Source: Tridacna crocea
Taxonomy: Eukaryota > Mollusca > Bivalvia > Cardiida > Cardiidae
Reading direction: 5' to 3'
Assembly: GCA_943736015.1 (NCBI GenBank)
Contig: OX031060.1
Span: 3,554,001-3,618,000, forward strand
Length of the DNA stretch: 64,000 nucleotides
Below the pieces are notes generated by a model. That model made no database searches, was not told the DNA's origin, and worked only from the letters and a program-made list of their open reading frames with translations. Below, in pieces: positions 528 to 54,860 of this stretch (positions within the stretch are counted from its first letter, which is position 1; every line of letters begins with the position of its first letter). The translations under genes and the position numbers were made by a program.

Positions 528-3500
528 GTAAGGCACCAGCTGGTGATAAGTATTTTTTCCTAAGCTATTTGCTTTGCCTATATGGATTAAAATTCTTAGA
601 AGATATTTTAGCACAACTGTTGAGGATGCAGAGGAAGGGGTCTTACAAGACTTAGTGTTTAAATCAATTTGATTTCTTATGCTTTTAGGAAGTCCAGTTG
701 CTGGAGAACTTCCCTTTAGCATGGCATTACAGTCTCTTCCCAAGTATAATACAAAGCCCTTAACCCTTTACTCCCTAGATACTCATTTTGATGTATGAAC
801 AACAGACAGTTTTTGAAAACATTGTGGGAAAAGGAGAAATTGCTCGTAACGAGCAATTTCTCCTTTTCCCACAATGTTTTCCACTCAGATATTTGTATCC
901 TCATTTGTCTCCATATTTTTGACATCATATATTTATTTGCTGCTGAAATGGAAGAGCCTCAAATTGGCATATCAGGTAAAGGTTAAAACCACTCCTTGTG
1001 ATAAGGTCTTAAGCCTCCTATTCAGAGAGCACTGTTCATTCCTATATTTACATTGTAGCTTTCAGCATGAAGAACTTCGGACAGAAACCTTCAAACCAAA
1101 CTCCACAACCTATGAGTCCATCCAAAAAACGAAAAAAGAAGAAATGGAATAATAAACAAGGTTATTGTCGTATAAGTTACAGTATTTATGCACATTTTTT
1201 CTTCCTTTTTGACTTCTCATCCTTTTACCACACTTTATCAAGTATTTTAAGTTGAAAGCATTTGTTGACAGTAAGTTATGCCCAGTAAAGGAATTTACTT
1301 TCGAAAATTTTGAAAAATATGGGAAAAAAGGCTAGTTGCCAGTGTTTTCAAGAGATACCTTTTTCAAGATTGTTTGTCCCTTTACCAGCCATTTCCTGGT
1401 TTTTCTGACCCTGAGATAAAGCCTTTTGAAAACATCGTGGGAAAAGAAGAAAATGCTGATAAACAGGATTTTCTCCATTTCCCGCAATGTTTTTTCCCTT
1501 CCTAAAACAAATTTCAGTTCTCTAGTCACATTCATTTTTTTTTTGTCTACAAACGCTTTCAATTTGGACCAGTTTAAAATTTTATTGTTTGGTAAAGAGT
1601 TGAAATGAAATTTTGTTGTATCCACTTAATAAATGAACGGTTACAAAAAGGAATAAACCTAAATAAGCACTTCCTGCCAAGTAATAAGACCCATATAATT
1701 GCAATGTCAAGATTACTATTGTCCAGCATGGCTTTGGAAGACAGGCAGTGTAGATCAAAGATCAGACTGCATATTTTGTGCAGTCTTATCTTGATGTACA
1801 CTGGCCACAAAAGCAGTATGGTATATCTTTATTTCTTTACCACAAAGCAAAAATGTAGATTTAAAGGTGGGTACTTAGAAATTTTACATCACACCAAATC
1901 AAAAAATATATATATCGCTAAAATTTATATGAAAAAACACTACAAATCATCAATAATTAAGAATCATAGAATTACCCCAAAAATTTTTTTTGATGGTATT
2001 CCCTTAAAAGACTACGTAGCCTCTTAAGATATTTTCAGATTTCACGCCAAAAATATAAAAAATGCATTTTGGGAATGTTAAGTGACTGGCATGTGATTAA
2101 TGACGCTTAAGTTCCATTACATAACAAACATGTAATTATTTTTCATAATATCTTCTTCGTACGCAATGTTTGAAGCTTCGTCTGTGTATTTCCAGTATGT
2201 AATTGAGCGAGTTGTTCATGTAAAAATAGAACGTGTTTCCCGTTGATGTCGACCTTGGCCATAGTAAATCTCTAATTTCTCGTGTTGTCGGATGGTTGTC
2301 GACTACTTTGGTTTTTTTGAATGACGATTATAAGGCTTTGGGAGTATAAGGATGATATTTTTTTATTTGTGTAAAATTTTCGTCCCAAATTCTGAAGGGC
2401 CACCTTTAACCAGATTGACAGTACTTACAGACAAAATTTCAGGGTGGTCCAAATTCAAAGCATTTGCAGACAACAAAAAAAACATCGCTTAAAAATTGAA
2501 ATTGTTTTGGGAGGGGTAGAAAACAATGCGGGAAAAGGAGAAAATGCTGAAAATGAAAGTTACCAGCATTTTTTCCTTTTCCCACAGTGTTTTTAAAAGG
2601 CCTCTTTCTCAGAGTCTTTAAAAGTCTTGGTTGTGTGGTAAAGGGATAAAATGATGATTTTTCTCTCATTGCAGGAAGTACCCCCCCACAGAGTGCAAAA
2701 CCTCAGGAAACGAATAAAAGAAAATTTGAGGATTTGAACGGTAAAATCGTTCTTTCTGTGTACCACATATATGGGATCTGAAATGAGTTGGCACTTTTTC
2801 ATGTTGTTATTGTTGTGTTAAAACATATCCATACATGTACCTGTGTATTGAAATTCACATGAAGCTTACTCATTTCTTTGATAGGTACTAAAAAGGTAAA
2901 AAGTAGTTCCGAAAAAATATAATTATACAGTAATGATTTTGTTTGAATCTAAAGATGACATAATCCACCTTTGTCATGATCACCTAGTTTTGGCACGTCA
3001 CTCTTTACCATATGAAAAAATTTTAGACTGGTCCAAATTGAAAGCACTTTCAGAAATGAATATAACTCAAAAATTGAAATTTGTTTCTAGCGGGGTAGAA
3101 AACATTGCGAGAAAAGCAGAAAATGCTGGTAACCAGCATTTTATCCTTTTCCCACAATAATTTCAAAAGGCTTTTATCTCAGGATCGTAAAAAATAGGGA
3201 TTGTTTAAAACAGTTAATTAGAACAGAAGTTTTTTTCTGGAATGTCTTAGAAATGAGTTGTATAACTAAACAGTGGTCTAAATATCACACTGTTGGCTTG
3301 TCTCAAGCTTTTGCAAGATTTCTTTATGAATGTATAACACTAAAACAAAGGTAGTAATAATGTTATAAATTGCATTTGCTCATGACATAAGATGTAGTGT
3401 GCTTAAAATAAGATAGAATGCAAACTTTTCGTTAAGATCCTTATCTGAACTTTTAAGACGATCCTTGGAAGCCAGTCGACCTTCCTGTAAACGCAAGTTT

Positions 3501-6500
3501 GGCATGTCCCGCTTATTATAGCGGTATATCGGTTGTCAAGCCTGACAAGCCAACGGAAAAATGGCGTTGAATACAATGAGAAAGAGCGTTTATTTCAGTT
3601 TTATTCTAGCTGATATTTCGCTCTAGGTTAATTACATTATTTTTTTTTTTTTAATTTTAATTGATTGATAACACGATAGCTGTTTTGAGAATTAAATAAA
3701 CACAATTAAGTTATTGCATGTATGTTAAAAAATTGTTTCAGACTTTTTTGTTTACATGAAGCCCAATGCTGCTTTTTCATTGGCCAATAAGACTTTGGAA
3801 GATGTCATCTTTCTGTAATGTTTCTTACCACAATTTTTCTTACCCTTTCAAAGGCATATTTCATAATTTGTGTAACATAATTTGTCCTCTTAAAATGCCT
3901 TCAATTTGAACCTGTCTAAAATTATTAGTTTTGGAAAGAGTTAAATCTTTACCAAATGACAATATTTTAGGCTAGTCCAAACTGAAAGCATTTGCAGACG
4001 ACAATTTAAAAGTGACTGAAAATTTGAAATTTGTTTTGGGAAGGGTAGAAAATATTTTTGAAAAAGGAGAAAATGCTGGTTACCAGCATTTTCTCCTTTT
4101 CCCACAATGTTTTCTAAAGGGTTCTTTGTCAGGGTCATTAAAAGTCGGGATTGTGTGGTAAAGAGTTAAAGTGAACAAATAATGAATGCAAAAGTGTTGG
4201 GGACAATTTGAAAACTTTGGAGAACAATTTGAAACTTTGTGATCAGCATTTAACAAAAGAGAGTGGGGTCAGAGTCTCAGAGAAAACCCTTGGCTAGTGA
4301 ATATTGCCCATGTATCTACCGGTATATTGTGAATTTGTCTTTAATTGCAGAGTCAAGAAGAAGTCCAAAGAAAATGAAGAAAACTGAAAAAATTGAAGAA
4401 GAAGATGACTCTGACCTTGAAGACAGTGACCTTGAAAATAATAACCTTGACAATAGTGACCTTGATAGCAGTGACCTTGAAAAAAGTGACCTTGAAAATA
4501 CTGGAGAAGACAATAAAAAAAGCACACAAGCAAAAGTGGAGACAAACAAAAAGTTTAACAAAAATAACTTAGTTGACAGAACTAAAATGGCAGGAAAAGC
4601 AGACTCTAATAAAACATCTAGAGAAAAGAAGGAAGTGAGTGTTGGTTTAATTAACAAAATGTTGGATGGTAAAAATAAAGGGAAACAAGCTCAGGATCCT
4701 GAGGAAGAGGAGGATGAGGAGGAAGATTCAGATGAAGAGGAAGATTCAGAGGAAGAGAGTATGGATGAAAGTAATGAAGGGGCAAAAAATAAGAACCATG
4801 ATGATAATGATGTGGCCAGTAATGATGATGATGAAGAAGATGATGATGACATTGATGAAAATGATGTAGAGGGAGATGATGATGAAGATAGTGAGAGTAA
4901 TGATGGAAATGATGTTGAAGATGATGAAGATAATGAGAGTGATGATGAAGATAGTGATGAGAAAGAGGATTCAGTCACTTCAAAGTCAGGGAGAAAGGAA
5001 AATTTAGTCACTTCAAAGGCAGAAAGAAAGGCAGAAGTAAAAGCCTTGCAGAAAAACAAGCAAGGCAATCAGAAGAATAGTAAAGGAGTTGAGCACATTA
5101 GAAAAGAGGAAGGGAATGATGACAATGATGATGATGATGATGATGCAGAAAGTGATGATGACAATGATGATGATGATGATGATGCAGAAAGTGATGATGA
5201 TGATGATGATATAGACCAAGAAGAGGAAAATATGGATGATGATAATGATAAAGATGATATAGAACAAAAGATTACCAAGAAGAAGAAAGAAACAACTGAT
5301 ATGGAGAATAAACAGCCAACTGAGATAAAACCCAGGGAAGAAAACCAGTGTAAGTACACCGCTCAAAAGAATGAAGGGAACACACAAATACCAAAATTCA
5401 AATCTTTCATTTTGGTGAACGCTCAGTCTATGTGCTCTGAAAACCATCAATTTCTTGCAAGATAAAATGGCCCAATACTTTTTTTTTTATTTAAAATACT
5501 GATAAGCTGTGTCTAGAAGAAAATCTAACAGTTTGTTTTCCTTGTTCTTTTGTCACTTAGTTTTCCAAGCTTTAGTTGATTTTTTTTTTTTTGTCCTATC
5601 ATAAGACAGAAGAAAAAGAGAATAAATATCATGACTGGTTCTCTTAACTCTGTACCAAACAACACATTTTTGGACCGGACCAAATTCAAAGCATCTGCAG
5701 ACAACAAATTAAATCTTTTTAATAGGATTTTGACTTGCACTTATCAGCTTGAGGGCAATACAAAAGTGTTCTAATCTGATTTTTCCTTCACTTAACTCTT
5801 TCCTTAACTACAAGTTTATGACCCTTACAAATTTAAATAATGTGCAGAAGACAAATTTAAGAATGGTGGAAATGAGTTATAGCCCTTTGATAGGGCAGAA
5901 AACATTGTAGGAAGAGAAGAAAATGCTGGTTACCAGCATTTTCTCCTTTTCCTAAAATGTTTAAAAAGTTGTCTTTTTCTTGGTCATAACAACCAGGTAT
6001 TGTTTAGTAAAGGGTTCAGTCTGATAAGTTAGCTCTATACTAGACAATCCTGAGTCTGAAAGAAAAGACTTTCGAAATATTGTTGGAAAAAAAGAAAAAT
6101 ACTGTTAACCAGCATTTTCTCTTTTTCCGTCAAAATTTTCTACCATGTCAAATACAGACATGGTTATTTTAACTCTTTACCAAACCACAAATCTTCAGAC
6201 TGGTTCAAATTGAAAGCACTTGCAGACGACAAATTAAATATAACTCAAAAACTGAAATTCGTTTCCAATAGGCTAGAAAAGACTTCTTTCTCAGGGTTAT
6301 AAAAACCAGGGCTTGTTTGGTAAAGGATTGAGTTATTGGAGAATGAGGTTTCAAAGAATACTATTGAGGCATCTGAAAAAAGAAGCTTATCAGGATAAAT
6401 GAAAACATGTATTAGTATCATCTTTTTCTACAGTGCCAGGGAGTTCTATAGGGGCTGAGATCCTCAGTGATGTCACATTTAAATCATTGGAGGGGAAAGT

Positions 6501-9500
6501 ATCCAAGAACACGATGGAAGCCATTGAAGACATGGGATTTACAAACATGACCGAGATACAGGCTAAATCTATACCCCATCTGCTGGAAGGACGGTATGAA
6601 GTTTTTTTTTTTTTGTTGTTGTTGTTTTTTTTTTGTTTAACCCTTTACCAAACAATCTCTTGCTTTCACAACCCTGAAGAAGAGGCCTTTTGAAAACATT
6701 GTGGGAAAAGGAGAAAATGCTGGTAAAGAGTTAAATAGGGTTTGATGCTTTTTTGGTTGATTAAATGACAGAAAACATTTTTGAAAAAAATTCAAAAATG
6801 GAGGAAAAGCTTGAAGATAGCAATGCTGTCATACCAAATAAATGTTTGTATGTCCCTTTAGCAGAAGACATAAATTTCTACTTGTCCAAATTGAAAGCAT
6901 TTGCAGATAACAATTTAAAGGTGACCAAAATAATAAGATTCGTCCTTGATAGGATAAAAGAAATCCAAAAAGGAGAAAATACTGGTTACCAGAACTTTCT
7001 CCTTTTCCCATATTTTTTAACCCTTTCCCAAACAATCCCTGGTTTTTGCGGGTCTGGAATAGTAGCCTTTTGAAAACATTGTGGGAAAAGGAGAAAATGC
7101 TGGTAACCAGCATTTTCTCCTTTTCCCACAGTGTTTTCTACCCTATCATAGACAGAAATCATCTTTTCAGCAAGAGTTGAATTTCCGTCTGCAAATGCTT
7201 TCAATTTGGTCTAGTCTAAAAGTTTGTCGTTTTGGAAAGGGTTAAAGGATTCTTCTGTTGGCTCATTCAAACTTGGGATTGTATGGTAACAGAGTAAGAG
7301 GTTTTAATCTTTTCAAGCCTTAAGCCAAAATTGGGACGTCATATAAACAGCATAGATCAAGATCAGACTACACAAATATATGCAGTTTACATGGTTGTCT
7401 CTGAAAGAGGAAGTGATGGTTTGATGAAAGAAATCAATAAATTGGTTTATTTTTCTGGTTTTACAGGGATTTAATGGGAGCAGCCAAGACAGGAAGTGGT
7501 AAAACCCTGGCTTTCTTAATTCCAGCTGTTGAACTTCTCTACAGCTTGAAGTTTATGCCTAGAAATGGTGAGTGAATGACTTTGTTTCATTGCAAAATAA
7601 TTCTATGTTTTTGTAACCGTGTCATACAATGCTAAGAAAAAGAAGAAAAGACTGTTGACCAGCAGGATGAGGAACAAGTTTGAATTTAAACATGATTCTT
7701 TCTGATACTTTCGTTATAGGTATTTATATGATAAGCATTCAACTCTTTACCTAACAATCCCGACTATTAATGACCTTGAGAAAAACACTTGTAGAAAACA
7801 TGGTGGGAAAAGGAGAAAATGCTGGTAACTGGCATTTTCTCCCTTTCCCACAATACTTTCTACCATACGAAAGTCAGAAATCATATTACCAAGATTTTAT
7901 TGGTTGTCTGCAGACGTTTTGAAAATGCTGGTAGTGAGAGGTAGGGGTCAGGTAGTCAGTACAATCTCCTGCAAACTGCTGTTACAGCAATTATTGTCCT
8001 GCATGGCTGAGTGAAGGTGTCAGACCTGGTTTGTTTGTGGGTAAAACATGTTCAAGCCCCAGCCAAGCAGTAATTAAACAAAGGAAAAAATTGAACAAGG
8101 AAGTTGTTGCTGTGTTATGTATGTATAATGTATAAAGCAGCACACATCATCATTTAGTTAACTCTTTACCACACGACAAAATTTCAGACTTGTCCACATT
8201 GAAAGCATTTGTGAACTACAGATTAGAGATGGCTCAAATGGTGAAATTCATTCTTGATAGTGGAGAAAACTTTGTGGGAAAAGGAGAAAATGCTGGTTAC
8301 CAGCATTTTCTCCTTTTCCCACAATATTTTCAAAAGCCTTCTCTTTCAGGGTCATTAAAATTTGGGATTGTGTGGTAAAGAATTAATCATTTGGAGCTAT
8401 CTTTAGCTATGTTTTCGAAAAAGTGTCAAAGTCTTGTATTTGCTCTGGGCTGGTGTGCTTGGTTGTGCTAAAACTTTTCATGATATCTGTAGTGCAACTG
8501 AAGACATTTGCTTCAAACTAGGGACTAGGTGTTAGCCATTTTTAAAACATTTTAGACAAATTTATGCCCCCAGTTTGTTAACTCTTTACCAAACAACAAA
8601 ATTTTTGACTGTTCCAAATTGAAAGCATTTGCAGACGATAAAATAAAAGTGACTGAAAATTTTAATTTTTTCTTGTGAAGAGTAGAAAACATTGTGGGGA
8701 AAGGAGAAAATGCTGGTACAGCATTTTCTCCTTTTCCCACAGTTTTTTCTAGAGGCTTCTTTCTCAGGGTCTTCAAAAGTAGGGATTGTGTGGTAATGGG
8801 TCAACTGCTTGTTTTCAAAAACTTTATACAACTTATAATATCTCTGTCAGTACTGAAAATATTTTCTTCAAACTTGGACACTAGGTTTTAACTATCAAAA
8901 GGGATATCCAAATCACACAGGCAGGTAAAGTTCAAAAAATTACTTTGTCCCTTTTTCAACTTAAAATTTCCGTAAAAAGAACTGGGGTAAAGCATTGGCA
9001 CCCTCATGCGATGTCGTTGTTATCTCTTGTATAGGCACAGGCGTGATTGTGATCTCACCCACAAGAGAACTCTCATTACAAACATTTGGAGTTGTGAAAG
9101 AATTACTGAAATATCACTGTCATACATTTGGCCTGGTTATTGGAGGTGCAAACAGGTCGGAGGAGGCCAAGAAACTGGGTAAAGGTGTCAACCTTCTGGT
9201 GGCAACACCTGGCAGGCTGCTGGATCATTTACAGGTAGGTTTGTGGGCTTCTTTCCGTGATTTTTTACCATATAATGAAATCTGATACATATGCACCTCC
9301 AGATTGAAAGCATCTGTAGACATTGAATTAAAAGTGGCTAAACTCATTACCACACAATCCATACTTTTGATGACCCTGAGAAAGGAGCCTTTAGAAAACA
9401 TTGTGGGAAAAGGAGAAAATGCTGGTTACCAGCATTTTCTTCTCTGTCCACAAGGTGATGTCCTCAGAGGTCATTAAAACTTTAATTATGTGGGAAAGGG

Positions 9501-12500
9501 TTAAACACCCAAATGTATAATGTAAGGCCCCGGGACCCTGTTTTACTAAGGTAGCTCTGAAAAAAATAGGCATAATTTTTATGTATTTATTGTATAGTGG
9601 CATTAATGCGCCACAAGATATATGATAACTGTCATGACTATTTTAGAAAACTATTGTAGTAAATCAGAGTTTACTGAAAAGTTATATAGTTAAAATGAAA
9701 AGATAAGATTTCCAGTAGAGTTTTATTCATCGCAATAATTTTCAAAAGTAATCATGATGATTATCTCATATCTTGTAGCAGGTTGATACCACTATACTAT
9801 AGTTACGTAAAACTTATGCAAATTTTATTTGTAGCTACCTTAGAAAAATGGGACCTGCTGGCGGTTTGTCTATCTTTCAGCATTATCCCTTTGGTCTGGT
9901 TTTGAAAATATTTCACACATGTATGCACTATGATGAGATGCGATGCAAATCAGAGGTTTCAGATGTAAGGTTTAAAGGTCAATGTTGAAGAAGGGGTCAA
10001 AGGTTACATGCTGGCAAATCTGTTTCTGTTTCTTATCTATTGAAAATCCACCTATATTTTAGATGGAGGGGGGAAATCCCCTTCAGTTTCAATTTTGTGG
10101 AATAGACACTGCAAGAGGACCATTCTACCTCCAGATTCAGTTGGCTATCATGGATTTTTTTTTATCAATATTTTTGCGACATCTTGCTTGATATAATGCA
10201 TCACAGGGAAGCATTACCCATTACCAAACAATCCCTACTTTTGACGCCCCTGAAAAAGAAGCCAGTAGAAAACATTGTGGGAAAAGGAGAAAATGCTGGT
10301 AACCAGCATTTTCACCTTTTCCCAAAATGTTTTCTACCCTTCACAGAACAAATTTCAAATTTGGACTCACTTTTATTTTGTCTACTGCAAATGCTTTCAA
10401 GTTGAACAAGTCTGTAATATTGTCGTTTTGTAATGAGTTAAACCTCCTTTTCATAGAGCATGGCTCAGTTATATGGCCTGCAACACACGAAAAGGGGCGT
10501 TCAAACATTTCCGTAAAGCGCTGTCTTGGATCAGCCTGCAGTGTTTGAGACGGCTCTTTACGGCTACATTAGATTTTGTCCTTCAGTAGATGTGCTTGAA
10601 ACAAAAAATTACATAAAAACGGAAAGTGTTGTTTCGGATCAGCTTGCGCGGACTGCGCAGGCTGGTCCGAAAAAACTCTTTACGCAAATATCCGAATGGG
10701 CCTTTTCGCATGTGTCAGGTCGTTTGATGTGTATGTTTCAGAATACAGACGGGTTTATGTTCAAGAACCTCCAGTGTCTCATTATTGATGAAGCTGACAG
10801 GATATTAGATATAGGATTTGAACATGACATGAAACAGATTGTCAAACTTCTACCTAGTAAGTTATTTTAGTATAATCTTTAACGGAGCTGTAGATAAGAG
10901 GGAGTGATAGTATTCCGTATCCATTATTTCTCTTCCAAACCCTATGTTGTGGGTACTCTTTAACAGCATAATCAGCTGGGTGTGTGTGATATTAACTCTT
11001 TCCCAAATGACAAGTTTTAGACTCTTTGAAACTGAAAGGTTTTGAAGACGACAATTTCAAATTTGATAAAAATGACACAAAGTTCTTGAAATAGGTAGAA
11101 AAAACTGAGGGAAAAGGAGAAATTGCTCGTTACGAGCAATTTCTCCTTTTCCCACAGTGTTTTCAAAAGACTTATACTGCAGACATGTAAAAACAAGGGG
11201 TTTTTTGGAATAGGTTAAAAATTATTGATTGATGATGGTGATTGCGACAGGATTCATTCTTTGCTCACAGCTGATGTTTGTATCAATGATGGTTATGTTG
11301 GAAAGCAGTCTGTGGATTGGGAAAAATATTGTGCAAAGCATTGGTAAAAGAAAGTGCAGGAAAGCACTGATAAATGCTCTTGCCATTGTGGTACAACTGA
11401 AAGAATGTTCAAAATTGGGGTCCAAATCTATAATGCCTCTGTACAAGTTTTGATTACTTCAAACATCTGTATTTTACATCGATTTTGAAACAAGTTCTTA
11501 CAACTTACACTGATCTCTATCGATCCTGCTTCCTTGAAACTACACAAGTACTTGAGCCGAATGGTTGGGCTAATGAAAAATCCCAAGGTTGACGCGGGCT
11601 CCAGGTTGTCGAACTCAGGACTTCATAGTTTAAGAGGACAACACCATACCTCACAACCACAGACAGCACATTTGACAAGTTATAGTTATATCATGAAAGA
11701 AATGTTGTCCCATAGTAATTTTCCTGGCTAATATTTGCTCTGGGCTGCATAGGTAAATTTTCACATCGCACTCAACATTTGGTCTTTACCCATGCAGCAT
11801 AAAAAATATAAGCACAAGGAAATCTACTAGAATAGTCATACCATTAACATTTTGTCGTAAAATTTACTGTCCATTGTCTCATGTGAGTGGTTTGGGGCCA
11901 ATCTGGCCCTCTTGTCTCTTTATCCATAGTATACTTTTTAAAAGATTTTGTCGGAAGGGTTCATTCAAACTCATTTGCTTGTCTACACCAACATTTTAAA
12001 GAATCTGCTCTAGGATAAAAAATATTATACTGTGTGTGTTAATTCTATACCAAATGACAAGATTTTAAACCAGCATTTTGAGACAAAAAAATGTTGAGCA
12101 GACAGTTGAATCAGTCAGTGAAAAAGTTGAAAACCTTGGGGGAAAAAGGAGAAAATGCTGATTACCAGCATTTTCTCCTTTTCCCAAATGGTTTTCAAAA
12201 GCCGTTTTTATCTTGGTCATTAGATCTTGTGCAGGGCTTCCCCTGCAAGTTTTAATTTTTGCGCCATCAAATTTTACACAAGTAGAAGGTTGAAATGTTA
12301 GAATTGTAATGTTTCAGAGAAGAGACAGACCATGCTGTTTTCTGCAACTCAAACCAGAAAGATAGAAGATTTAGCTAGAATATCCCTGAAAAAAGAGCCC
12401 TTATATGTAGGAGTGGATGACAGACAAGATAAAGCCACAGTGGAAGGTTTAGAGCAGGTAACACTTGTTTCTTGGTTGAAAATGCAGAGCCTTGAAGCTC

Positions 12501-18500: not shown

Positions 18501-21500
18501 TCAAAAGGTAGCGTGATAACTGATTGTAAATCAGAAGTATAATTGATAGATTGGTATCTGTTAAAATCAGGGCTTATCAGCTCAGCTAGGTAAGAATGCC
18601 TGTTTATTGATGAATTGTTTAACCCTTTACTTCCATAGATACTCATTTTTATGCATTGCTTGTAGGAGCCTTTGGAAAACTTCGTGGCAAATGGTGAAAT
18701 TGCTCGTGACGAGCAATTTCACCTTTTGTCACAATGTTTTCTATGCTATCAAAGGGTGTACTATACACATAAAAAACGGCTTCCTCCTTGCTGTTATTTA
18801 GGGTCAATTAGAGATACATATAGAAATACCTGATGGTGTAAAGGGTTAATAGTTTGTTTAACCCATTACCACAAAATCCCTACTTTTGACGACCCTGAGA
18901 AAGATGCCTGTAGAAAACATTGTGGGAAAAGGAGAAAATGCTGGTAACCAGCATTTTCTCCTTTTTCCCCATGATGTTTTCTACTCTTCACAAAACAAAT
19001 TTCAAATTTTCAGTCACTTTTATTTTGTCGTCTGCAAATGCTTTCAATTTGGACAAGCCTAAAATATTGTCGTTAGGTAATGAGTTAAGATGCATGATAG
19101 TACAAATTACGATGTATTTAGCATTCATGCCCACAGGGTATTAGATAAAAGACTGCAAAATTGGAACATTTTTTTTTTTCATGCGTTCATAGCGTTTTTT
19201 TGTTGCCTGCATCTACCAGGAATGAGGCTTTTATGAAAAGTATCATTAATACAGTTTTGTGGTTTAATTATATTCACATGACTGTATGTGCAAGTCAGTA
19301 TAAGACAGAAATTTATCAACTGCAGAAGTAAAACTTTTACTAAACAAGATATCTTGGACTAGTCCAAATATTAAGCATTAGCAGACAACAAGTTATATGT
19401 GGCCCAAATGATGTGATAAAAAAGAACCCGATAGGGTGAGAAATATTTTGTAAAACAAAGATATTGCTGGTTACCAGCAATTCCTCATCTTCCATTAATG
19501 TTTTCCCAAGCCTTGTATTACAGCATCATGAAATTTAGGGCTCTTGACAGAGGGTTAAGAGGTCACATTCACCATTTGCGGTTAAATTCTGGTTCAAATT
19601 TTTAAGACTTGCAACATTCTGTTTCAACCTATAGTATAGATTGTCTAAGGAGTAGTTAACCCATTGCCACACAATCCCTACTTTTGATGCCCCTGAGAAA
19701 GAAGCCTTTTGAAAACACTGTGGGAAAAGGAGAAAATGCTGGTAACCAGTATTTTCTCCTTTTCCCACAGTGTTTTCTACCCTTCCAGGAACAAATTTCT
19801 ATTTTTTTAGTCACCTTTATTTTGTCCTCTGCAAATGCTTTCAATTCGGACCAGTCTAAAATTTTCTTGTGTTGTAAAGAGTTAACAGAATGAAATAAAA
19901 GATGGTTGCTGTAGAAAGTCACATGTATCATACCCACCAACCATCCTAAGTTTAATTTTTAACTGACCTGGGCAAAATCCAGAAAGAGCTATTGCACTAA
20001 CCCTTTGCTTTAGCAACCATGGTTTTTGCCTTTGTCCACAATGTTTTGTATCTTTCCAAAACAAATTTCAGATTTTTTAGTCACATTTATTTTGTTGTCT
20101 GCAAATGCTTTCAATTTTGCACCAGTCTAAAATTTTGGTTTTTTTTGTAAAGAGTTAAGTTGTTAAACTCTTTACTACACAAAAAAAGCAGGCTTGCCCA
20201 ATGTCTATTGAAAGCATTTGCAGATATCAAAATAGACATTATTAAGAAATCAGAATTAAAATTTTGTTTTGAGCAGGGTAGATGACATTGCGGGAAAAGG
20301 AGAAAGTGCTGGTTACCAGCATTTTCTTTTTTACCCACCATGTTTTTAACTCTTTACCAAACAATCCCTGGTTTTTACGACCGTATTTGGGCATATATGC
20401 ACTGCTCTGCAAAAACTCTTGTTTCCTTGGTTTTTACAACCCCGAGATGGAAGCCTTTTGAAACATTGTGGGAAACGCTAGCATTTTCTCCTTTTCCCAC
20501 AATTTTTTCTACTCTTTTAAAGTCAACTTTCAATTTTTTCTTCACATTTATTATGTCGCCTTTAAATGCTTTCAATCTAGACAATGCTTTCAATCCCAGG
20601 AGAGGAACTTTATAAGCTAGTAGCTTTCGTTCCAATCCTTTTCACGTAACTTTACCTACCAGAACAGTATCATGTATGTAAATATTATATTGAATAAAAT
20701 ATGTTTAAACTAATCTAGACAAGTCTAAAATTTTGTTGTTTGGTAAAGAGTTAATAACTAGTCTTAAAAACCAAGGATTGTTTGATAAAGGTTATTGAAG
20801 GATTAGCATTTTTTTCTTAATTTTGACAATTTAGTTAAGCAGCTCATGGCTGCTGAAGAACATTGTAAGGAGTATTGATAAGAAAATAGCAAGGAAGGCA
20901 GGGATAGGTATGATATAACTGAAATAATAAAGAAAAAAAATTCATTATGTCAGCAAACAAACAATAACAAGCATAACTAAGAAGAAGAGTTATTAGTACT
21001 TTATTGTATTTTATAACCTGTAATCTGGTTATAAATTCATCAGTAATAGTGAAAAAACAGGAAGATATTGTTGTTATTTCAGCATTCTAATGTGTTGCCA
21101 ATAACCATGGATTTATTGGGATAGGGAACTTGGCCCTTTACTTACCAATTCTGTGTTTTTTAGGAAGACCACTTTTTTTTAACCCATTGCCACACAATCC
21201 CTACTTTTGACGACCCTGAGAAAGAAGCCTTTGGAAAAAAAATTGTGGATAAAGGAGAGAATGCCGGTAACCAGCATTTTCTCCCTTTCCCACAATTTTT
21301 TCTACCCTTCACAAAACAATTTCAAATTTACAGTCACTTTTATTTTGTTGTCTGCAAAAGTTTTAGATTTTGACAATCCTAAAATTTTATTGTTTGGTAA
21401 TGAGTTAAAACATAGTTAGAAAAGGAGAAAATACTGATTATCACTGATTTTGTGCTCTTTCCACAATGTTTTCTATACTATACAAGAAAACTGTTGACAA

Positions 21501-24500
21501 CATTTAGGACAGACAAGAAAACTCAGGTAAGCAGAAAAAGATACAAGATTTTCTCCTTTTTCGACAATGTTTTTGACATTTTCGAAGAAAAAATCTCACA
21601 AGTTTTGCCACATTAAATATTTTGTATGCAAAATTTTGTTGTTTTGTAAAATGTTTTCTTTTGTTGAAGAAAAGGGGAAAGGAAGGTTTACTATTATTTC
21701 ACCCTTTAGCATACAATCCAGAATGAAGATGACCTTGAGTACCTATAGAGTTCCAAATAACAGTGAGTGATGGTATCCGAAATCATTTATTTCTCTTCCA
21801 AACCCTATGTTATGGGCACTCATAAGAATCATCTTGATGAGATGATTATAATCAGTACATAAGTTTAACTCATTACCACACAAGAAAATTTTGGACTGGT
21901 CCAAATTGAAAGCATTTGCAGACGACAAAATAAAGGTGACTGAAAAATAGAAATTTGTTCTGGGAAGGGTAGAAAACACTGTGGGAAAAGGAGAAAATGC
22001 TGGTTACCAGCATTTTCTCCTTTTCCCACATTGTTTTCAAAAGGCTTCTTTCTCAGGGGCGTCAAAAGTAGGGATTGAGTGGTAATGGGTTGAGAATAAT
22101 TAATATTTTCAATTTTGAAATCAAAATCATTTGCTCTATCTGGAGCTCTGGTCTTTTGAAAGAAAGTTGTGTCAGTACTGCTGTGAGAAAGCAAGGAAAC
22201 ACATGTTTTTGTAACTGACTGCCATGATAACACAGAACCTGTTAATCCTTTGGCTGCTAATCGCGACTCACTGACCTTTAACGGGCAGTGTAGATCAAGA
22301 TCAGACTGCACAAACGTGCAGTCTGATCTTTGATCTACACTGTCCGCAAAGGAGATATTTCTCCCATAAAAATTAATTTTGAAATAGCAACTCTTGAGTT
22401 TCTACTCTCCACTTTAAGATATCATTGAACTAACACAGCAGGATAAGGGTTAAAAATCCATAAACAACAAAGCGTTGGACTGGACAAAATTCAAAGCATA
22501 TGCAGACAATAAATTAAATCTTGTTAACCCTTTACCAAACGACAAAATTTTAGACTGGTCCAAATTGAAGGCACTAGCAGATGACAAAATAAATGTTACT
22601 CAAACATAGAATTTTTTTTCCAGCCTGGTAGAAAACATTGTGGGAAAAGGAGAAAATGCTGGTTACCAGCATTTTCTCCTTTTCCAACAATGTTTTCAAA
22701 AGGGTTCTATCTCAGGGTCGTAAAAACCAGGGATTGTTTGGTAAAGGGTTAATATGATGATTTCTGACTTTGATAGGGTTGAAAATATTGTGGGATAAGG
22801 AAAAAATGCTGGTTAGCAGCATTTTCTGCTTTTGCCACAATGCTTTCTATAGGGTTATTTCTGAGCTTCGTCAAAAGTCAGGATTGTGTGGTAAAGAGTT
22901 AAACTGCAATACAAGTCAAACCAATCTCAATCTGGCCAAGTGTGAAATTTTGTCGTAAGGTAAAAAAATTGATAATGAAGACCTAGTAGTAAGTACATCA
23001 CGATCTTGAAAGAGAGATCTTGAAAATATATTGGAAAAGGGCATTTTTTCCTCCCACAATCTCCTGTTTCCCTTCACAGACCAAATCTCAACTTTTGAGC
23101 TATGGTTAAAGTGCCCTCTGCTAATGCTATCAATTTGGATACGTCAAAAATTTTGCTGTTTGGTAAATTTGTTAAATATTCTGAGGTGCAGGTTGTGGGT
23201 TCAATCCCTGGCTTGGCCAATTTATTTCTTAGGAACGATGATAGTCATTACGACAGAATTCATTCTTCCCTCGTCACTGACCATTTTTTTGAGGATGGAT
23301 ATGTGGGAAAGCAGCCAGTGGCTTGGAAAGGAAATTATGCAGAGTAAACTCCAGGAAAACATGGTTGGGTGTACTGGCAGCAGTGATATAATTGAAATAA
23401 TGTTGAAAAACAGCATTGACCCTTTACCAAACTATCCCTGGTTTGTACGACTCTGAGATAGGAGCCTTTTGAAAACATTGTGGGAAAAGGAGAAAATGCT
23501 GGTTACCAGCATTTTCTCCTTTTCCCACAATATTTTCTACCCTACTGGTAATGAATTTCAATTTATGAGTTAAGTTTATTGTGTCGTCTGCAAATGCTTT
23601 CAAGTTTGACCAGTTTGAAATTTTGTCGTTTGGTAAAGAGTTAACTTGTTACCAAACGACAATATCTTAGGCTTGTCTAGACTGGTGTCAGTCCGTTAAA
23701 TAGAGCCTTTTCATTAAAACAAAATCATCAAGTAAAACTGCAAAACGAAATCTCTGAGTTCTCAATGTTCTGATGTCTGTATTTCAGAAGAAGGGCAAGT
23801 AATAACACATATTTCTGTGAGTTGATGTAGTTGTGTACCTTGTTTATCAGAATGACTTAAATGCAGGGCCTGAATGCCAGGCTAAGGCTTGTCCAAATCG
23901 AAAGTATTTGCAGAAGACAAAAGTGACTGAAAATTTGAAATTTGTTTTGTATAGGGTAGAAAACATTATGGGAAAAGGAGAAAATACTGGTTACAAAATG
24001 CTGCTTAGCAGCATTTTCTCCTTTTCCCACAATGTTTTCCAAAGGCCTCTTTCTCAGGGTCGTCAAAAGTAGGGATTGTGTGGTAATTGGTTAAACACCA
24101 TACAACTATACAATTAAATATTCCGAGGAAGAAAAGGGTGAAATAAGATTTATTTAGGGACAGAAAGCAATGGGATGTTTGTAGATGTCAGAAGATTGTT
24201 GTTTCCTTTGAATAACAGTAAATTCTGTTGTCAGACAACAGTAATGGACATGACAAGAGTATAAACAACACGGTAAAAATAACCCAAACTGCCATGGTTA
24301 TGAATACTGTGATTATTTTTGCCAAGGTATTTGGTATACTGATACCCTGCACTGCCAATGAGCCGTTTCCCTCCTTTTATCAGTAGGTATCCATAGAAAG
24401 TGATTCTCCACAGCAAAATCAAATGGGGTAGCCGTGAATATCTTTAAATCTTTACCAAACGACAAAATCACTGACTTGTCCAAATTGAAAGCATCTGCAG

Positions 24501-27500
24501 ACAACAAATTAGATGATGCACAGACTGTTTTTTTTTTTTCTATGAACTGCTAGAAAGCATTATAGAAAAAGGAGAAAATGCTGGTTATCAGCATTTTCTC
24601 CTTTCCCATGATGTTTTCAAATGGTTTTTTTTCTTTGGGGTCTTATAAACCTGGAATTGTTTGGTAGAGGGTCAAGATGGAACTGTTAGTCTTTACCACA
24701 CCTGAGTTTTTAACAGGCCTAAGGAAGAAGGCTTTTGGAAAATTGGTATCAACTCTTTACCAAACGACAGAATTTTAGACTGGTCCAAATTGAAAGCATT
24801 TGCAGACTACAAAATAAAGGTGACTGAAAAATTGAAATTTGTTCTGGAAAGCGTAGAAAACACTGTGGGAAAAGGAGAAAATGCTGGTTACCAGCATTTT
24901 CTCCTTTTCCCACAGTGTTTTCAAAAAGCCTCTTTCTCAGGGGGTGTCAAAAGTAGGGATTGTGTGGTAATGGGTTAAAGGAGAAAATGCTTTTTCATGA
25001 AGGTCATTAAAACTCAGGATTGTGTGGTAAAGGGTTATATCTTGTTCACAGGACGAAATTTTAGACGGTTCAAAATTGGTAACATTTCCAAAGGACAAAG
25101 TAAATCTGACACAAGTTATTGGATATGTTGGTACAGGCATTTTCTCCTTTTCCTGCAATGTTTTCAATGGGCTTTATCATCAGGGTCTTGCAAATTCGGG
25201 ATAGTATGGTAGAGTGTTAAGGGGTGCTAACAGATTCGGCTGGGTGAAGTAATTGTAACCTTGTAGAGCTATTTGCAAACATGGTTCTGACATTTGTTTC
25301 AATGTGCAAAACTCATTAACTGCCTGTGATGGTTGAAAAAAAGCGATTACCGATCCCACAATGCACCAGTTTAGTCACATGTCTTTCATTCCACTTTGAA
25401 AAGTGATATTCCACCTTGGAAGTAAGTCAGGTTTTGTTCCACAAAGGTAAACGAGGGCACAAGGTATTGTACTTCAAATGAATGGCTTGAGAAATGCAGG
25501 GGAAAAATACTTTTTAACCCATTACCAAACGACAATATTTTGGACTGGCCCAAATTGAAAGCATTTGCAGATGACAAAATAAAAATGACTGAAAATTTGA
25601 AATTTCTTTTGTGAAGGGTAGAAAACATTGTGGGAAAAGGAGAAAATGCTGGTTACCAGCATTTTCTCCTTTTCCCACAATGTTTTCTAAAGGCTTCTTT
25701 CTCAGGGGCGTCAGAAGTAGGGACTGTGTGGTAATTGGTTAATCCTTTCTCATACGACAAAATTAAGACTCTTCTTGAGAGTTTTTGAGAGCGTCTGCAT
25801 TCTGCAGTCAATAAGTCTAAATGTGGTGCAACAGTGCAAATAAAATGAAGGTCTTTGAAAGGGTAGAAAACATTGTGGGGAAAGTAGAAAATGCTGATTA
25901 CCAGCATTTTCTACTTTCCTCACATTGTTTTTAAAAGGCTTTTACCTCAGAGTTGTTTAAACCTGGGAATTGTTTGGTAAAGGGTTAAACAGAAGCAAGA
26001 CATTTTTAGGACCTTGCACACTTTTGGCCAACAAAATGTTATAAATGTCAAAATTTGAAGCATTTACAGAAGACAAAATTAAAGTTCACTCAAATAACAG
26101 ACTTTACCTTCAATTGAATATTTACATAATGGGAAAAGGAAAAAAAAATTTTTTTTTTTGCCATACTGTTTTAAAAAGCCTTCTTCAAGGTCCCTTGACA
26201 CTATGGTCACATTGTGAAACTGCCGATTTTTAGACATCGGTGGATTCTTAAAGTTATATGCCGCCGGCCGATATTTTTTTACAAATCTGTGAGAGTGCTC
26301 ATAAATAACTGCCAGTAAAAGGCCGCCTGGCAGTGGTTCCAGGCGGCGCCAGGCAGTTTGTTAAGTTCGAGGGGTGTGGGGAGTCATCAGGGTGTTGGCA
26401 GGTGGCAGTTAGGCGACAGGCCGGCAGCCAGCAGATTTTACCTGCCACCACCTGGCGACCTGCCGGACACCGACCATTTACATCTGACACCAGCCGGAGA
26501 TCAGGCGTTTAAACTGTCACCGCAAGGCGCCCGCCCGATAATCTGATGGCGGCAGGCTGGTTTAAGGGGGATATATAAAGCTAGATTGCTCTCGTATCAC
26601 TTCAAAGTATCCATCATTATTATAAACCACAAGATAAACAGATCTAATTTCTAAGAAATTTTTCCTTCCAACAGGTTGCCCCCTAAAGGCAAGGGGCAGG
26701 GCAAAGCACCAGCACCAAAGCACAAGAGACCAGAGCCCAACCCAGCAATACGCAAGTCTCTGAATCGCTATGGTGTTGTAAGAATCACCATGACAACAAT
26801 TTTTTATTGTGAATAGCCTCAGATTTATGTTCAGGGGCCTGGGAGTCTGCACTCAGCAGATCGTCGTCCTGCCACCTACCAACACTGACAGTTGCTTTCC
26901 ATCTACTTTTCAATGTCCGCCCTGCCGCCGGCAGATATTTTGAAATCGCACGGTGGCATGTCGGTAGCATAATGGTAGCAGACCGAATGCTGGAGAGTGG
27001 CAGTTAGTTGCTACTGATTGCCGGCCAAAGATTGAAGGCCCTCGAACCCCGTGACAAATTTTAACTTTTTCTTAAAACTTCAGTGGCGTCCTTGAGGTGT
27101 CTAAAATGCCGCCTGCCGATTGTGCCTGCCATTGAGCTGCCACTGGCCGAATTTGAGTGAAAACTGGCAGTTACCACGCCGACAGGTGGCATTTACTGAT
27201 TTGTGACTGTACAATAAATTGGGAATTTCATGTAGAAGAGTTAATATGAAAAGGAAAATTTTAGAATTGTCCATATTGAAAGTGTTTAGTTTGCACATTG
27301 CAAATGATTGTGGTTTAAATGGTGAAAATGGCCTATTACCGGAAGACAAAATTTTAGGCTGATCCAGATTCAAATAAGTTGCAGACAACAATTCAAATTG
27401 AGTGTAAATTGAAAAATTTGTATCTGTTGGGGTAGAGAACACTGGAAAATGAAAAAAATGCTTGTGACAGGCAACTTTTCCTGTTCCTATGTGTTTTCTA

Positions 27501-30500
27501 TAATATTATTTCTCAGGTTCTTAGGGTTATCACTACAAAATAATCAGAACCAGGACCCCAAAACAATAATACACTAATGCATTATCGAAATTAAGACTTG
27601 GGTTTAATAACACTGCTGGAGGCATTTTTATGTGATGATATAAATTTTTAAGCAATGATTTTGCAAAGTTATATTCAGGACAAGGAGTGCGTAAAGGCGA
27701 AATGTCACAGAGATGGAATCAGTTACTATTGCATGGCAAGCGTTTTACCAATGGTTTTCTTTTTTTCTTCCTTAGGGCAAACAGAAACAAGCTAAAAGGA
27801 CCCAGACATTTTTCCAGTTTTGTAACGCAAAGGAGGGTATAATACTGTGTACTGACGTCGCTGCCAGAGGTCTTGATATTCCTGCCGTTGATTGGATAGT
27901 TCAGTTTGACCCTCCAGATGACCCTAAAGTAGGTCAAAGACTTTCTTATCTCTACCAGGGCCCGTATTCACCAACCATTCTTAACTCTTTACCACACAAT
28001 CCCTAGTTTTAACGACCCAGAGAAAGCAGCCTTTTGAAAACACTGTGGGAAAAGGAGAAAATGCTGGTAATCAGCATTTTCTCCTTCTCCCACGTTTTCT
28101 TTATTTTCAGGATCAAGTTTCATCATTTTATTGGCATTTATTTTGTTGTCTGCAAATGCTTTCAATTTGGACAAGTCTAAGCGATCGTTGTGTGGTAAAG
28201 AGTTAAGAACGTTCTTTGTCTTATTCTCCAGAACTTTCTTCATATATAAGTAAGACATCTTCTAATTGGCTGAACCATTTGGTTTAGCCAATCAGAGGTT
28301 GTGTTACCTATGAATTTAGAAAACTTTGGAGAATAAGACCAATGATATTCTTATTCCGGCCCAGGGTCCAAAATCACAACCATTCTTAACATCATTCTTT
28401 GTCTTATTCTCCAAGGTTTAGTAAGTTAAAAGTTACACTACTTCTGACTGGCTGAACCATTTGATTTAACCATGTTGTCAACCAAACAGAAGTTGTGTTA
28501 CTTTCACATTTAGGAAGTTGGAGAATTAGATAAATAATGTTCCTGAGAATGGTTGGCGAATGTGAATCTAGATGTCAAAATTTTAGACTTGCAAAATCCT
28601 TTACCAAACAATCCCTGGTTTTCATGACCCAAAGAAAGAAGCCTTCTGAAAACATGGTGGGGAAAGGAGAAAATGCTGGTAACTAGCATTTTCTCCTTTC
28701 CCCACAATGTTTCCTACTTTTTTAAAGTCAAGTTTCAATTTGTGAGGTGCATTTATTTTGTTGTCTGCAAATGCTTTCAATCGGGAAAGTCTAAAATTTT
28801 GTCATTTGGTAAAAAGTTAAAGTAATTATAGAAGCCAAAAGTGAACAAAGTAGGTGTTGAATTGCATTTAGATTTATACCGGTAATACCATTTAACCCTT
28901 TACCAAACCACAAAATTTTAGACTAGTCCAAATTGAAAGCACTTGCAGACGACAAAGTAAATGTAACTCAAAAGTTGAAATTTGTTTCTAGCAGGGTAGA
29001 AAACGTTGTGGGAAAAGGGGAGAATGCTGATTACCAGCATTTTCTCCTTTTCCCACAATGTTTTCCAAAGGCTTCTATTTCAGGGTCGTAAAGACCAGGG
29101 ATTGTTTGGTAAAGGGTTAAAGGTGTGCAAACTATTGTGAAGATTGTTAAGAATTAAAGATGTAGCAAACAAATCCATTGCATTTATACTGGACCCGATA
29201 ATGATCCAGTGTTGGTGAAAAAGAGCGTAAGTGAGTAATGTGAAAAATAAGTGTGAAATGAATAAAACAGAGAGCTCAAGAGGGAGTGATTGTATTCTAA
29301 AATCATTATTTCTCTTTGAAACCCTGTGTTGTGTGTACTCATTAGAATCGTCTCAATGAGACGATTCTAATGAGTACGCACAACATAGGGTTTAGTGTAG
29401 AATAATAAAGATTTTCAATTTTGAAATCATAATCACTGCCTCTATCTGGAGCTCTGAAACCTGATTAACCTATTACCAAGTACCGGTAATCATGAGTTTT
29501 GAACACACTGAAGAAGAGGACTGGTAACCAGCTTTTTCTACCTTTTCCCACAATGCTTTCTACCAATTTTAGACAGAAATCATCATTTGAGCAATATTGA
29601 ATTTGTCATGTGCCATTGCTTTCAATTTGGTCATATCCAAAACTTTGGATTTTGGTAAATAGTTCAGATATGAAACACAAATATGAATTCAATGATAGAA
29701 AGTCATCAATGGGTTTCTTACTCAATTTTACATCATGTCTGTAACAACTATTTTATTACCCCATTACCACACAATCCCTACTTTTGACGACCCCAAGAAA
29801 GAAGCCTTGAGAAAACATTGTGGGAAAGTGCTGGTTACCAGCATTTTCTCGTTTTCCAACCATGTTTTCTACATTTCACAAAATAAATTTCAAATTTTCA
29901 GTCACATTTATTTTGTTGTCTGCAAATGCTTTCATTTTGGACAAGCCAAAATTATTGTTGTTTGGTAATGAGTTAAAGAAACATAGTACCGGTAACTACC
30001 AGTAGAGCAAATTCAGATCCCCATGAGCCTCTTATTATATGATAGTACTAACATAATGATTTTATTACAGGAATACATTCACAGAGTGGGTAGGACAGCA
30101 AGAGGAGAGGGAGCTAGAGGCCACGCCCTTCTTATTCTGCGCCCAGAGGAACTTGGGTTTCTACGATTTCTGAAGAATGCCAAAGTTCCATTAAATGAAT
30201 TTGAGTTTTCATGGAACAAGATATCGGACATTCAAATACAGGTAAACCAGGCCCTGTGAAAACAATATAGACCCAGGTATAGACCCATGTATAGACCCAG
30301 CTTAGCCTGTCCAGTAATTATGGTAATCTGTTCAGATTGAATAATCAATTAACTCATTACCAGACGACAAAAGTTTAGGTTTTTCCAAATCGAAAGCAAT
30401 TGCAGACTACAAAATAAAAGTGACTGAAAATTTGAAAATTGTTTTGTAAAGGGAAGAGAACATTGTGGGAAAAGGAGAAAATGCTGGTTACCAGCATTTT

Positions 30501-41425: not shown

Positions 41426-41509
41426 GGTTGGTTCAGCTGCGCTTGCTTTGTCTTTTTTACAGTTTTCAATACTCTTTGACATGCAGTGAATTCATCAGTG
41501 GCGAAAATT

Positions 41510-41568
41510 ATCGACCCAGGTCAGCCTGCGCGGACCGTGCAGGCTGACCTGGGTCGATACTTTCCCAA
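41510..41568. repeat. Perfect palindrome of the GCGCAGGC family
   Basis: ATCGACCCAGGTCAGCCTGC and its complement around GCGGACCGTGC, a ~56-bp near-perfect foldback. Degraded relatives lie at 17565 and 43485. Confidence 0.8.
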
Positions 41569-43325: not shown

Positions 43326-43484
43326 CCATGCCCTGACAAAAGGGAGCTTTATGCATCTCCGTGATCCATGACAGCAAGAAAGTTAGTTATGGACCCATAA
43401 TAGACATATTTTTGAACAACCGACTTAATCAATAGGTAGAGTTGGTCTTGGGCATACAGGAAAGTGATCAATAGCGAAAAGTTT

Positions 43485-43545
43485 CGGTCCAGGTCAGCCT
43501 GCGCAGTCCGCGCAGGCTAACCTGGGTCAAAATTTTTCGCAGATG
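43485..43545. repeat. Palindrome of the GCGCAGGC family
   Basis: CCAGGTCAGCCTGCGCAG and CGCGCAGGCTAACCTGGG form the stem. Confidence 0.75.
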
Positions 43546-47223: not shown

Positions 47224-47434
47224 GCCGATACGATGTATGTTTCCTTGCAACCACCTTACCGGAAACAGCCCGCTGAAGCACCACGGGAACCAGAGTATTT
47301 GCTTGTTATAATTACACCATTATCTCCCGCTAGATGGCATTGTATAAATACTTATCTATCTAATCCGGGCATCCTGGGTACAGAACCGAACCACTTTCCT
47401 ACGCGAAAACCGTTATTTTGAATTTCAAACTAAA

Positions 47435-47585
47435 ATAAATTTTAGACAATTTTAGATTTGGAGAAAATGGCAGAAAGTAAGGAGAAATTGCTCGTTACGA
47501 GCAATTTCTCCTTTTCCCACAGTGTTTTCAAAAGACTTTTACTGCAGACATGTAAAAACCAGGGCTTGTTTGGGAAAGGGTGAAT
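47435..47585 (+). mobile_element. Hairpin MITE, GCTCG core, shortened
   Basis: Perfect hairpin around GCTCGTTACGAGC; right end TTTGGGAAAGGGTGAA; left arm mostly deleted. Confidence 0.75.
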
Positions 47586-47969: not shown

Positions 47970-48204
47970 TATTACAGTCTGCCCGCTTTTGGGGCTAGTG
48001 ATGCGTCATATAAGACAGGTAGAATCTTCGAAGAATATGACATGCGCAGACAACGATAATTACACGTTATTGGTTTTTTTCTCTTGCAATCTTAAGTATT
48101 GTCAAATAACTGAAAGGTGTTCAGGCAAGAGGGGGTTTAATGGATCTCTATGATGCAATAGTACAAGTTATCTATCGTATGAATTAGTGATCCATATAAT
48201 CCAC

Positions 48205-48554
48205 TTATCTCCCGCTGGATGGCATTCTACAAAAAGACATCTATCTAATTTTTGCATCCTTGGTAAAAAACCGGACTACTTTCCTACGCGACAACCATTA
48301 CTTTGAATTTCAAACTAAAATAAACGTTTACTCAATAAAACGCTACCTGGTGCGATTCATTCAGCTATGATCAGCAGTTTAGAGACATCTGGAGCTAAAA
48401 CAGGCTTGATTTTTCCTCAAACGTATTGATAAAAGCCATTTTTTCGATTGCTACTTTATAGCACGTGTTCCTACAATCCCTCCTAAAATGGGGGGAGTGA
48501 TGCGACATAAAAGACAGGTCGAATCTTCGAAGAATATGACATGCGCAGACAACG
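48205..48554 (+). repeat. Dispersed repeat F, copy 4
   Basis: TTATCTCCCGCTGGATGGC to ACATGCGCAGACAACG; more diverged than copies 1 and 3. Confidence 0.82.
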
Positions 48555-48643: not shown

Positions 48644-48899
48644 TTGCAACACGGTAAAAAGGACATTCGGACATTTACGTAAAGTGTCGCTTCGGATCAG
48701 CCTGCACAATCCGCGCAGGCTGATCCGAAACGACACTTTCCGTTTTAATGTATTTTTCTGTTTTATGCAAGTCTACTGAGGGACAAAATCTAATGTAGTC
48801 GTAAAGTGCCGTCTCGGATCACCCTGTGCGGACTGCGCAGGCTGATTCGAGATGGCATTTTACGCAAATGTCCGAATGCCCCTTTTCATGTGTTGCAAG
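48644..48899. mobile_element. ~255-bp foldback element of the GCGCAGGC family
   Basis: Ends GGCTTGCAACACGGTAAAAA and TTTTCATGTGTTGCAAGC are inverted. Each half also has its own GATCAGCCTGC...GCAGGCTGATC stem, giving nested hairpins. Confidence 0.8.
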
Positions 48900-52330: not shown

Positions 52331-52340
52331 ATCACTCACT

Positions 52341-54467: not shown

Positions 54468-54631
54468 ATTCCCTTTTCATACGGGTCATGTATAATTTAC
54501 GAGACACATTCTAGGATACGGTAAAGTAGTATTGGCACCTAATTTGCATAGAGTTCCTTTTGCCATCCTTCTATTTTTGTAAATTCATGCACATCACCAA
54601 AATTAATTCTGAGGAAGATCGCAGAGCCACC

Positions 54632-54860
54632 TTAACCCATTACCAAACAACAATATTTTAGACTGGTCCAAATTGAAAGCATTTGCAGACGACAAAATTA
54701 AAGTGCCTGAAAATTTGAAATTTGTTTTCTAAAGGGTAGAAAACATTGTGGGAAAAGGAGAAAATGCTGGTTACCAGCATTTTCTCCTTTTCCCACAATG
54801 TTTTCTAAAGGTTTCTTTCTCAGGGGCGTCAAAAGTAGGGATTGTTTGGTAATGGGTTAA
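54632..54860 (+). mobile_element. Hairpin MITE, full length
   Basis: TTAACCCATTACCAAAC to GTTTGGTAATGGGTTAA; its right half is duplicated at 55394. Confidence 0.92.

Follow-up and report, generated by a model that had tools for sequence, protein, structure and literature searches.

The two arms of a palindrome inside an abundant repeat of the bivalve Tridacna crocea carry complementary changes, and our analysis indicates that they do so mainly through a few families of the repeat that descend from founders with perfect stems. Copying or flipping templated by the hairpin, selection, or the two together could have kept these founders perfect; inversion of the single base in the hairpin loop is the strongest pointer to mechanism and fits copying of one arm from the other through the hairpin. 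We studied the repeat in 64,000 nucleotides of contig OX031060.1 of assembly GCA_943736015.1 (positions 3,554,001 to 3,618,000, forward strand; hereafter, the window, from whose first position coordinates are counted unless a locus is named) and in further sequence from the same genome, of which 1.05 Gb in 31 contigs were searched. The repeat is an element of ~229 bp that ends in TTAA and is built around a central palindrome of two 33-bp arms and one loop base, in the order TTAA, a short imperfect terminal repeat, a left flank of ~39 bp, a 33-base arm, the loop base, a 33-base arm, a right flank of ~90 bp, the terminal repeat and TTAA. From its ends it looks like a miniature inverted-repeat transposable element (MITE), and we divide its copies into families A, B and C.

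Complementary changes in the two arms

We compared 238 copies, taken from the window and 291 kb of the same genome, with the bait copies of the pattern search excluded. Eleven of the 238 rows, at least 97% identical, were removed later, leaving 227 distinct copies; the slid-partner, pair-type and non-partner-ratio counts given below predate this removal. Such near-identical rows had swollen the counts of some pair types: type 85 TA>AT consisted wholly of six copies from one locus (L033), five of which were among the rows removed.

In the window, 79 stem copies held 62 both-changed cells (a cell being one pair in one copy, here altered in each arm), vs 21–34 in 16 slid partner sets; 44 of the 62 were complementary. 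Across the 238 copies, true partners gave 246 both-changed cells, of which 180 were complementary and only seven were G-T pairs, and 20 slid sets gave 74–129 both-changed and 15–36 complementary cells from smaller totals (5,322–7,420 cells vs 7,649 at the true partners). Pairs of positions that are not partners exceeded independence only 1.4–1.5-fold for changes of the same mutation class, outside the types that mark families. This modest excess, taken with the contrast to the slid sets, indicates that the arms covary well beyond chance, and we regard the complementary arm changes as confirmed. When each of the 227 distinct copies was given the right arm of another, 112.8 of the 175 complementary doubles were kept if the donor was a flank neighbour, 81.5 if it was of like age and 49.1 if it was any copy. 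Chance combined with copy age, taken alone as the cause of the whole set, is ruled out by the slid partners and the arm swaps.

The original prediction, made on several copies in the window of which three were cited, was that the arms change together, through copying of one arm from the other or selection for a folded form. All three matching arm pairs are present, with ends a few bases from those first given, and the covariation stands; the interpretation is partly supported, the commonest pair types mainly marking old families. The two family A examples match in their arms without being clean hairpins (four and three mismatched pairs), and the paired changes of the example near 18690 are present as a matter of plain family C membership, that is, by inheritance. 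The three copies are as follows.

18619..18849 (+): family C element with TTAA ends and its own flanks, third example (nhmmer, family C model, 228.8 bits)
18675..18741 (+): central palindrome of this element, with outer limits placed 33 bases from the centre in both directions and the loop base at ~18708
18693-18702 / 18714-18723: arms GGTGAAATTG / CAATTTCACC of this palindrome
25739..25988 (−): family A element, first example, in which pairs 70 and 75 carry paired changes and four pairs are mismatched
25866..25932 (−): palindrome of this element, limits approximate, with arms GGAAAGTAG / CTACTTTCC at 25879-25887 / 25911-25919
28595..28820 (+): family A element, second example, with a paired change at pair 70 and three mismatched pairs
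28648..28714 (+): palindrome of this element, limits approximate, with arms GTGGGGAAAGG / CCTTTCCCCAC at 28657-28667 / 28695-28705

Families and inherited pair changes

Five pair types make up 102 of the 180 complementary cells: 81 AT>TA (28), 86 GC>CG (23), 63 TA>CG (22), 76 AT>TA (15) and 69 GC>CG (14). They occur together, mostly along with the flanks, such that family B carries 63, 81 and 86, family C carries 69, 76, 81 and 86, and a subfamily of A carries 63. By best model score the 227 copies comprise 200 of A, 13 of B and 14 of C, and the consensus sequences were built from 200, 11 and 13 copies, respectively, three poor or doubtful B and C rows being excluded. The consensus stem of each family pairs at 33 of 33 positions; the stem differences of B from A (pairs 63, 81 and 86) and of C from A (69, 76, 81 and 86) are every one two-sided, and none is unpaired. 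Flank columns agree at 26/39 and 62/89 between A and B, and at 18/39 and 47/90 between A and C, the right flank of C aligning poorly to the A model. Among the three families the stem is identical in 58–61 of 67 columns and the flanks in 43–70%, and divergence within family A is 0.10 in the stem and 0.21–0.22 in the flanks.

On a tree of the flanks (FastTree, 169 copies), the doubles at pair 81 required 4 steps for 17 copies, those at 86 required 4 for 12, those at 76 one for 6 and those at 69 two for 5. Pair 63 needed 12 steps for 19 copies and is therefore only partly a subfamily mark. Half-changed copies are few at the first four pairs (double/left-only/right-only copies: 28/3/4 at 81, 23/0/1 at 86, 15/2/3 at 76 and 14/2/1 at 69). 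These four of the five family-level types are left-right swaps of a pair, A-T to T-A or G-C to C-G, that leave the number of hydrogen bonds unchanged; a swap has no wobble-pair intermediate. The prevalence of swaps is unexplained, chance in a sample of five being the sole explanation at hand.

The original prediction had named one outcome that would tell against it, namely that the paired changes define a few old subfamilies, for which a single ancestral event is enough. This largely describes what we find, in that the five types, with 102 of the 180 cells, mainly follow the flank families; a scattered excess stays outside them, and a single event is too strong a claim, given that two-sided change affected five pairs or more and that the consensus stems hold no unpaired difference.

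The scattered excess was sought within family A. With the 63 type excluded, its 200 copies have 74 complementary doubles, vs 41.0 ± 5.9 when right arms were swapped at like flank divergence (maximum 60 in 400 runs) and 19.8 expected when they were taken from flank neighbours. Among the 186 copies without the 63 double, there are 41 transition doubles vs 23.3 × 1.46, near the prediction from non-partner pairs, and 29 transversion doubles vs 7.9 × 1.49, above that prediction. Family A has a modest component of doubles that are private or belong to small subfamilies; copy L050:7814-7937 carries two paired transversions and no mismatch.

Inversion of the loop base

Among 185 family A copies oriented by their flanks (182 with a loop base), the loop base is A in 147, T in 20, G in nine and C in six; the other stem A columns of the family have T at 2.4%, G at 3.2% and C at 1.3%. 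It is G in seven and C in three of ten family C copies, and A in ten and C in one of 11 family B copies. Genome-wide, the exact left flank followed by arm GCCTTTTGAAAACATTGTGGGAAAAGGAGAAAATGCTGGT leads to loop A at 20,656 places, T at 1,713 and G at 598, so that T takes 7.5% of the A+T+G places in this exact context and is 2.9 times as frequent as G. At one of 13 loop-T places inspected by eye, among the matches listed, the left flank lay on both sides and the orientation was undecided. Two of 27 orientable bait copies with a perfect core were also inverted, one further row having been set aside. On the flank tree, loop T in 15 copies took 14 steps (shuffled mean 14.6, minimum 12), and the copies are scattered in such a way that one loop-T founder is insufficient.

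In the available text of PMC8794818, an inverted loop is the trace expected when template switching passes through a hairpin. A cruciform that was cut and rejoined would likewise invert the loop, and raised mutability of the unpaired loop base is possible, loop G and C being also somewhat raised in our sample.

Class, abundance and copies of the element

The family consensus sequences are 228–229 bp long, and the element is small and without a transposase gene. Among the 77 family A copies that align at both termini, 62 have TTAA at both and 76 have it at one or both; we read it as a putative target duplication from the element ends alone. CCCT lies inside TTAA at the left ends of A, B and C and at the right ends of B and C, and the right end of the A consensus is CTCT. 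In the portions of the literature available, CC[C/T]T inside TTAA is the hallmark of piggyBac-type ends (PMC2872659), piggyBac transposons target TTAA (PMC9587614), and Kolobok transposons have a TTAA target duplication with ends 5'-RR and YY-3' (PMC9587614). With CCCT at most of its ends the element resembles a piggyBac-type MITE, and judged from these ends it is probably a non-autonomous piggyBac-like one; a Kolobok-type MITE was rejected, as the element ends start with CC or CT and not RR. With RNA parameters the consensus elements fold as a long perfect hairpin (−83 to −105 kcal/mol). No Rfam model matched at gathering score in the 64,000 bases of the window, and a reading as structural RNA was set aside on this ground. 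A search for the palindrome core in viral contigs gave no match.

The window holds 108 non-overlapping copies, which cover 19,229 of its 64,000 bases (30.0%). In an outside sample of 20 stretches of 10 kb, taken at round coordinates from ten contigs, 24,167 of 200,000 bases (12.1%) belong to 139 copies, and two stretches have no copy. A 31-base palindrome core with up to three mismatches matches the genome 451,808 times forward and 450,216 times in reverse; since this core is self-complementary but for the loop base, forward and reverse matches should largely be the same places, ~450,000 in all. A 45-base core without mismatch, that is, perfect over 22 pairs (67–88), occurs at 88,271 places (44,028 + 44,243). 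The six L033 copies form a tandem array (starts 1224, 2892, 4563, 6235, 7901 and 9569; 100% identical), and locus L049 has another of six copies (lower ends 718, 2357, 3989, 5628, 7260 and 8899; 98.7–100% identical); both have a unit of ~1.63–1.67 kb with one MITE copy per unit. Further copies in the window are these.

760..985 (+): copy with paired changes 81 and 86 and no mismatched pair; its left part also fits the family C model, and its best model is A
10992..11218 (−): family B element whose stem carries the paired changes 63, 81 and 86
23416..23644 (+): family A copy in which the loop base is inverted (T for A)
24750..24978 (−): family A copy with paired change 63 TA>CG and no mismatched pair
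47392..47583 (−): partial family B element
54631..54860 (−): full-length family A copy in good preservation, its stem equal to the consensus, top match of the window (254.9 bits)

MITE copies in the window sit between open frames that we take to belong to a DEAD-box helicase: those at 6403-6693, 8965-9285 and 10517-10870 are presumably exons, and the acidic frame at 4254-5465 is presumably its acidic N-terminal part.

Other palindromes and repeats

A scan of the same 355 kb found 223 palindromic repeats, 152 with the MITE motif and 71 without it, a few of the latter being decayed MITE copies. Two further hairpins, D and E, were compared in copy sets that required at least 18 of 30 pairs, which biases them toward pairing. 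Covariation counts for hairpin D were set aside, as its arms differ in length by one base and this inflates the counts. The 15 copies of hairpin E, apparently of two families, gave 34 both-changed cells, 25 of them complementary, vs 7–27 and 0–6 at 12 slid partners; part of the copies seem mixed in the orientation of the loop, which is possibly inverted. Hairpin E probably resembles a bivalve repeat. Its positions in the window are:

41505-41563, 43474-43540 and 48677-48743, plus other loci: hairpin E (..CAGCCTGCGC..GCGCAGGCTG..)

A TTAA-ended stretch of ~212 bp at 22242-22453 has an unrelated central palindrome at ~22298-22329 (AGATCAGACTGCAC / GTGCAGTCTGATCT), and this hairpin recurs at other loci. 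Palindromes with arms of ~60 bases lie at 60186-60305 in the window and at L048:7780-7906 and L043:2931-3053. The window also contains two 323-nt stretches that form an inverted repeat with 82% complementarity (48195-48517 and 59278-59600), and short-unit repeats on both strands at 51480-52342, where repetitive open frames face each other.

Explanations for the paired changes

We favour, tentatively and at slightly less than an even chance, an account in which hairpin-templated copying or flipping re-pairs the arms and flips the loop of the TTAA-ended MITE. The palindrome would fold as a hairpin or cruciform during replication, repair or transposition; now and then a template switch would copy one arm into the other, or the folded palindrome would be cut and rejoined, which would convert single changes to paired ones and flip the loop; and copies with re-matched arms would go on to found new families. 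In its favour we count the fully paired differences between consensus stems, the swaps with few half-changed copies, the frequent and scattered loop inversion and the arm-swap excess of doubles within family A. The scattered loop inversion tips our judgement to copying over selection. A broader proposal seems to us rather doubtful: that the palindrome templates itself in source elements and resident copies alike, staying perfect through a mutational mechanism and not selection, with loop inversion in several percent as the footprint and other palindromic families sharing the process.

Several observations weigh against this account. Perfect stems are found in only 13 of 176 family A copies, resident arms having mostly decayed, and the least-changed third of copies has one double vs 98 singles when ranked by stem changes and eight vs 163 when ranked by flanks; in-place copying, if it occurs, must therefore be rare relative to point mutation. 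When copies were binned by their own stem changes, the expectation for the 74 family A doubles rose to 51.8 ± 6.6 (maximum 77 in 500 runs), which shrinks the scattered excess; this excess is not concentrated near the loop, and of the 29 residual transversion doubles, six belong to types that mark families and occur in odd or old copies, 760-985 among them. Copies may also share a one-sided change: besides its 22 doubles, pair 63 has 22 left-only and six right-only copies, and in six of 13 family C copies column 110 holds a T that faces G68 unpaired. Several flank columns of family A have complement-type variants in 20–36% of copies, so that an 11% share of loop T stands out within the stem and not within the element; the scatter of the inverted copies carries more weight than this share. 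Loop inversion was absent from the nine of 12 hairpin D copies that could be oriented well. Finally, terminal-repeat columns 8 and 222, which lie 214 columns apart, covary as well (T-A 64, A-T 23, A-A 16, T-T 7), and a local hairpin need not account for this.

Selection on source elements is the main rival and a substantial possibility, somewhat less likely in our view than copying: the palindrome would act as a DNA structure or a two-fold protein site in transposition, only elements with matched arms would multiply, and each pair would arise by two ordinary mutations. It draws support from the conservation of the stem sequence itself, beyond pairing (58–61 of 67 columns vs 18–26 of 39 in the left flank), from the lower divergence of the stem than of the flanks within family A, and from the covariation both of columns 8 and 222 and of hairpin E, another palindrome of the same genome. 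The ends of piggyBac are described, in the text available, as holding palindromes bound by two cysteine-rich domains (PMC11707139). The shared one-sided variants at pair 63 and column 110 could be intermediates, and the left-only copies of pair 63, examined as such, had no clear flank haplotype. What selection alone does not account for is a loop base at which inversion is 2.9 times as frequent as the transition, or swaps such as G-C to C-G with so few half-changed copies.

That old subfamilies suffice, with all paired changes coming from a handful of founders and the rest from chance and unequal copy age, is unlikely. The concentration of the complementary cells in five types along flank-defined families speaks for it, as do the arm swaps, in which flank neighbours kept far more doubles than any copy did, and the residual transitions, which lie near the non-partner chance level. 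Against it stand the residual transversions (29, or 23 minus the family-marking types, vs 7.9 × 1.49), the arm-swap excess within family A, the scattered loop inversion and the need for the founders themselves to have become paired at five or more pairs. We consider it very improbable that the hairpin is kept for a role as RNA, be it as a small-RNA or miRNA-like precursor or as a trigger of RNA surveillance. The long perfect hairpin of the consensus would suit such a role, as would the position of copies between frames that we take for helicase exons; the window is without an Rfam match at gathering score, and G-T pairs, which RNA stems tolerate, are just seven of the 246 both-changed cells.

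Relation to known systems and significance

One close likeness in description is to CMITE, known from Acropora corals through Wang et al. (2010, PMC2872659), which as far as the available text goes is small and non-autonomous, has TTAA duplications and piggyBac ends of the CC[C/T]T type, comprises families with different ends that share a conserved internal region, and can form tandem arrays. CMITE is shorter, at ~100 bp, and has an estimated 1600 copies in A. millepora, whereas the T. crocea element has ~450,000 core matches; compared by description and not by sequence, its internal region is given in that text without a palindrome or paired changes, whereas ours contains a palindrome of 67 nt. 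Searches of one collection of open-access papers turned up no account of a piggyBac-type MITE whose internal palindromes covary. The piggyBac and piggyBat transposons also target TTAA and have palindromic sites in their ends, to which a transposase domain binds in two copies, but the account available of these sites describes 19-bp palindromes near the ends, and here a single 67-nt palindrome lies near the middle (PMC11707139). The formation and repair of hairpins by template switching, for which compensatory doubles and loop inversion are the expected footprints of arm copying, has a published precedent in Monttinen and Löytynoja (2022, PMC8794818); their study, in the part available, shows this for RNA genes, in which compensatory change with loop inversion is extremely rare, whereas here it is a transposon palindrome whose loop is inverted at ~7.5% of places in one exact context.

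The persistence of perfect hairpins in the face of random mutation is a standing problem, for which template switching has been put forward in the accessible text of PMC8794818. With 88,271 places perfect over 22 pairs and ~450,000 core matches, the rates of single changes, paired changes and loop flips could be measured at each stem position of this element, and such rates would tell copying in place apart from selection acting on source elements. An element this abundant offers many natural replicates of how DNA hairpins may copy or flip themselves.

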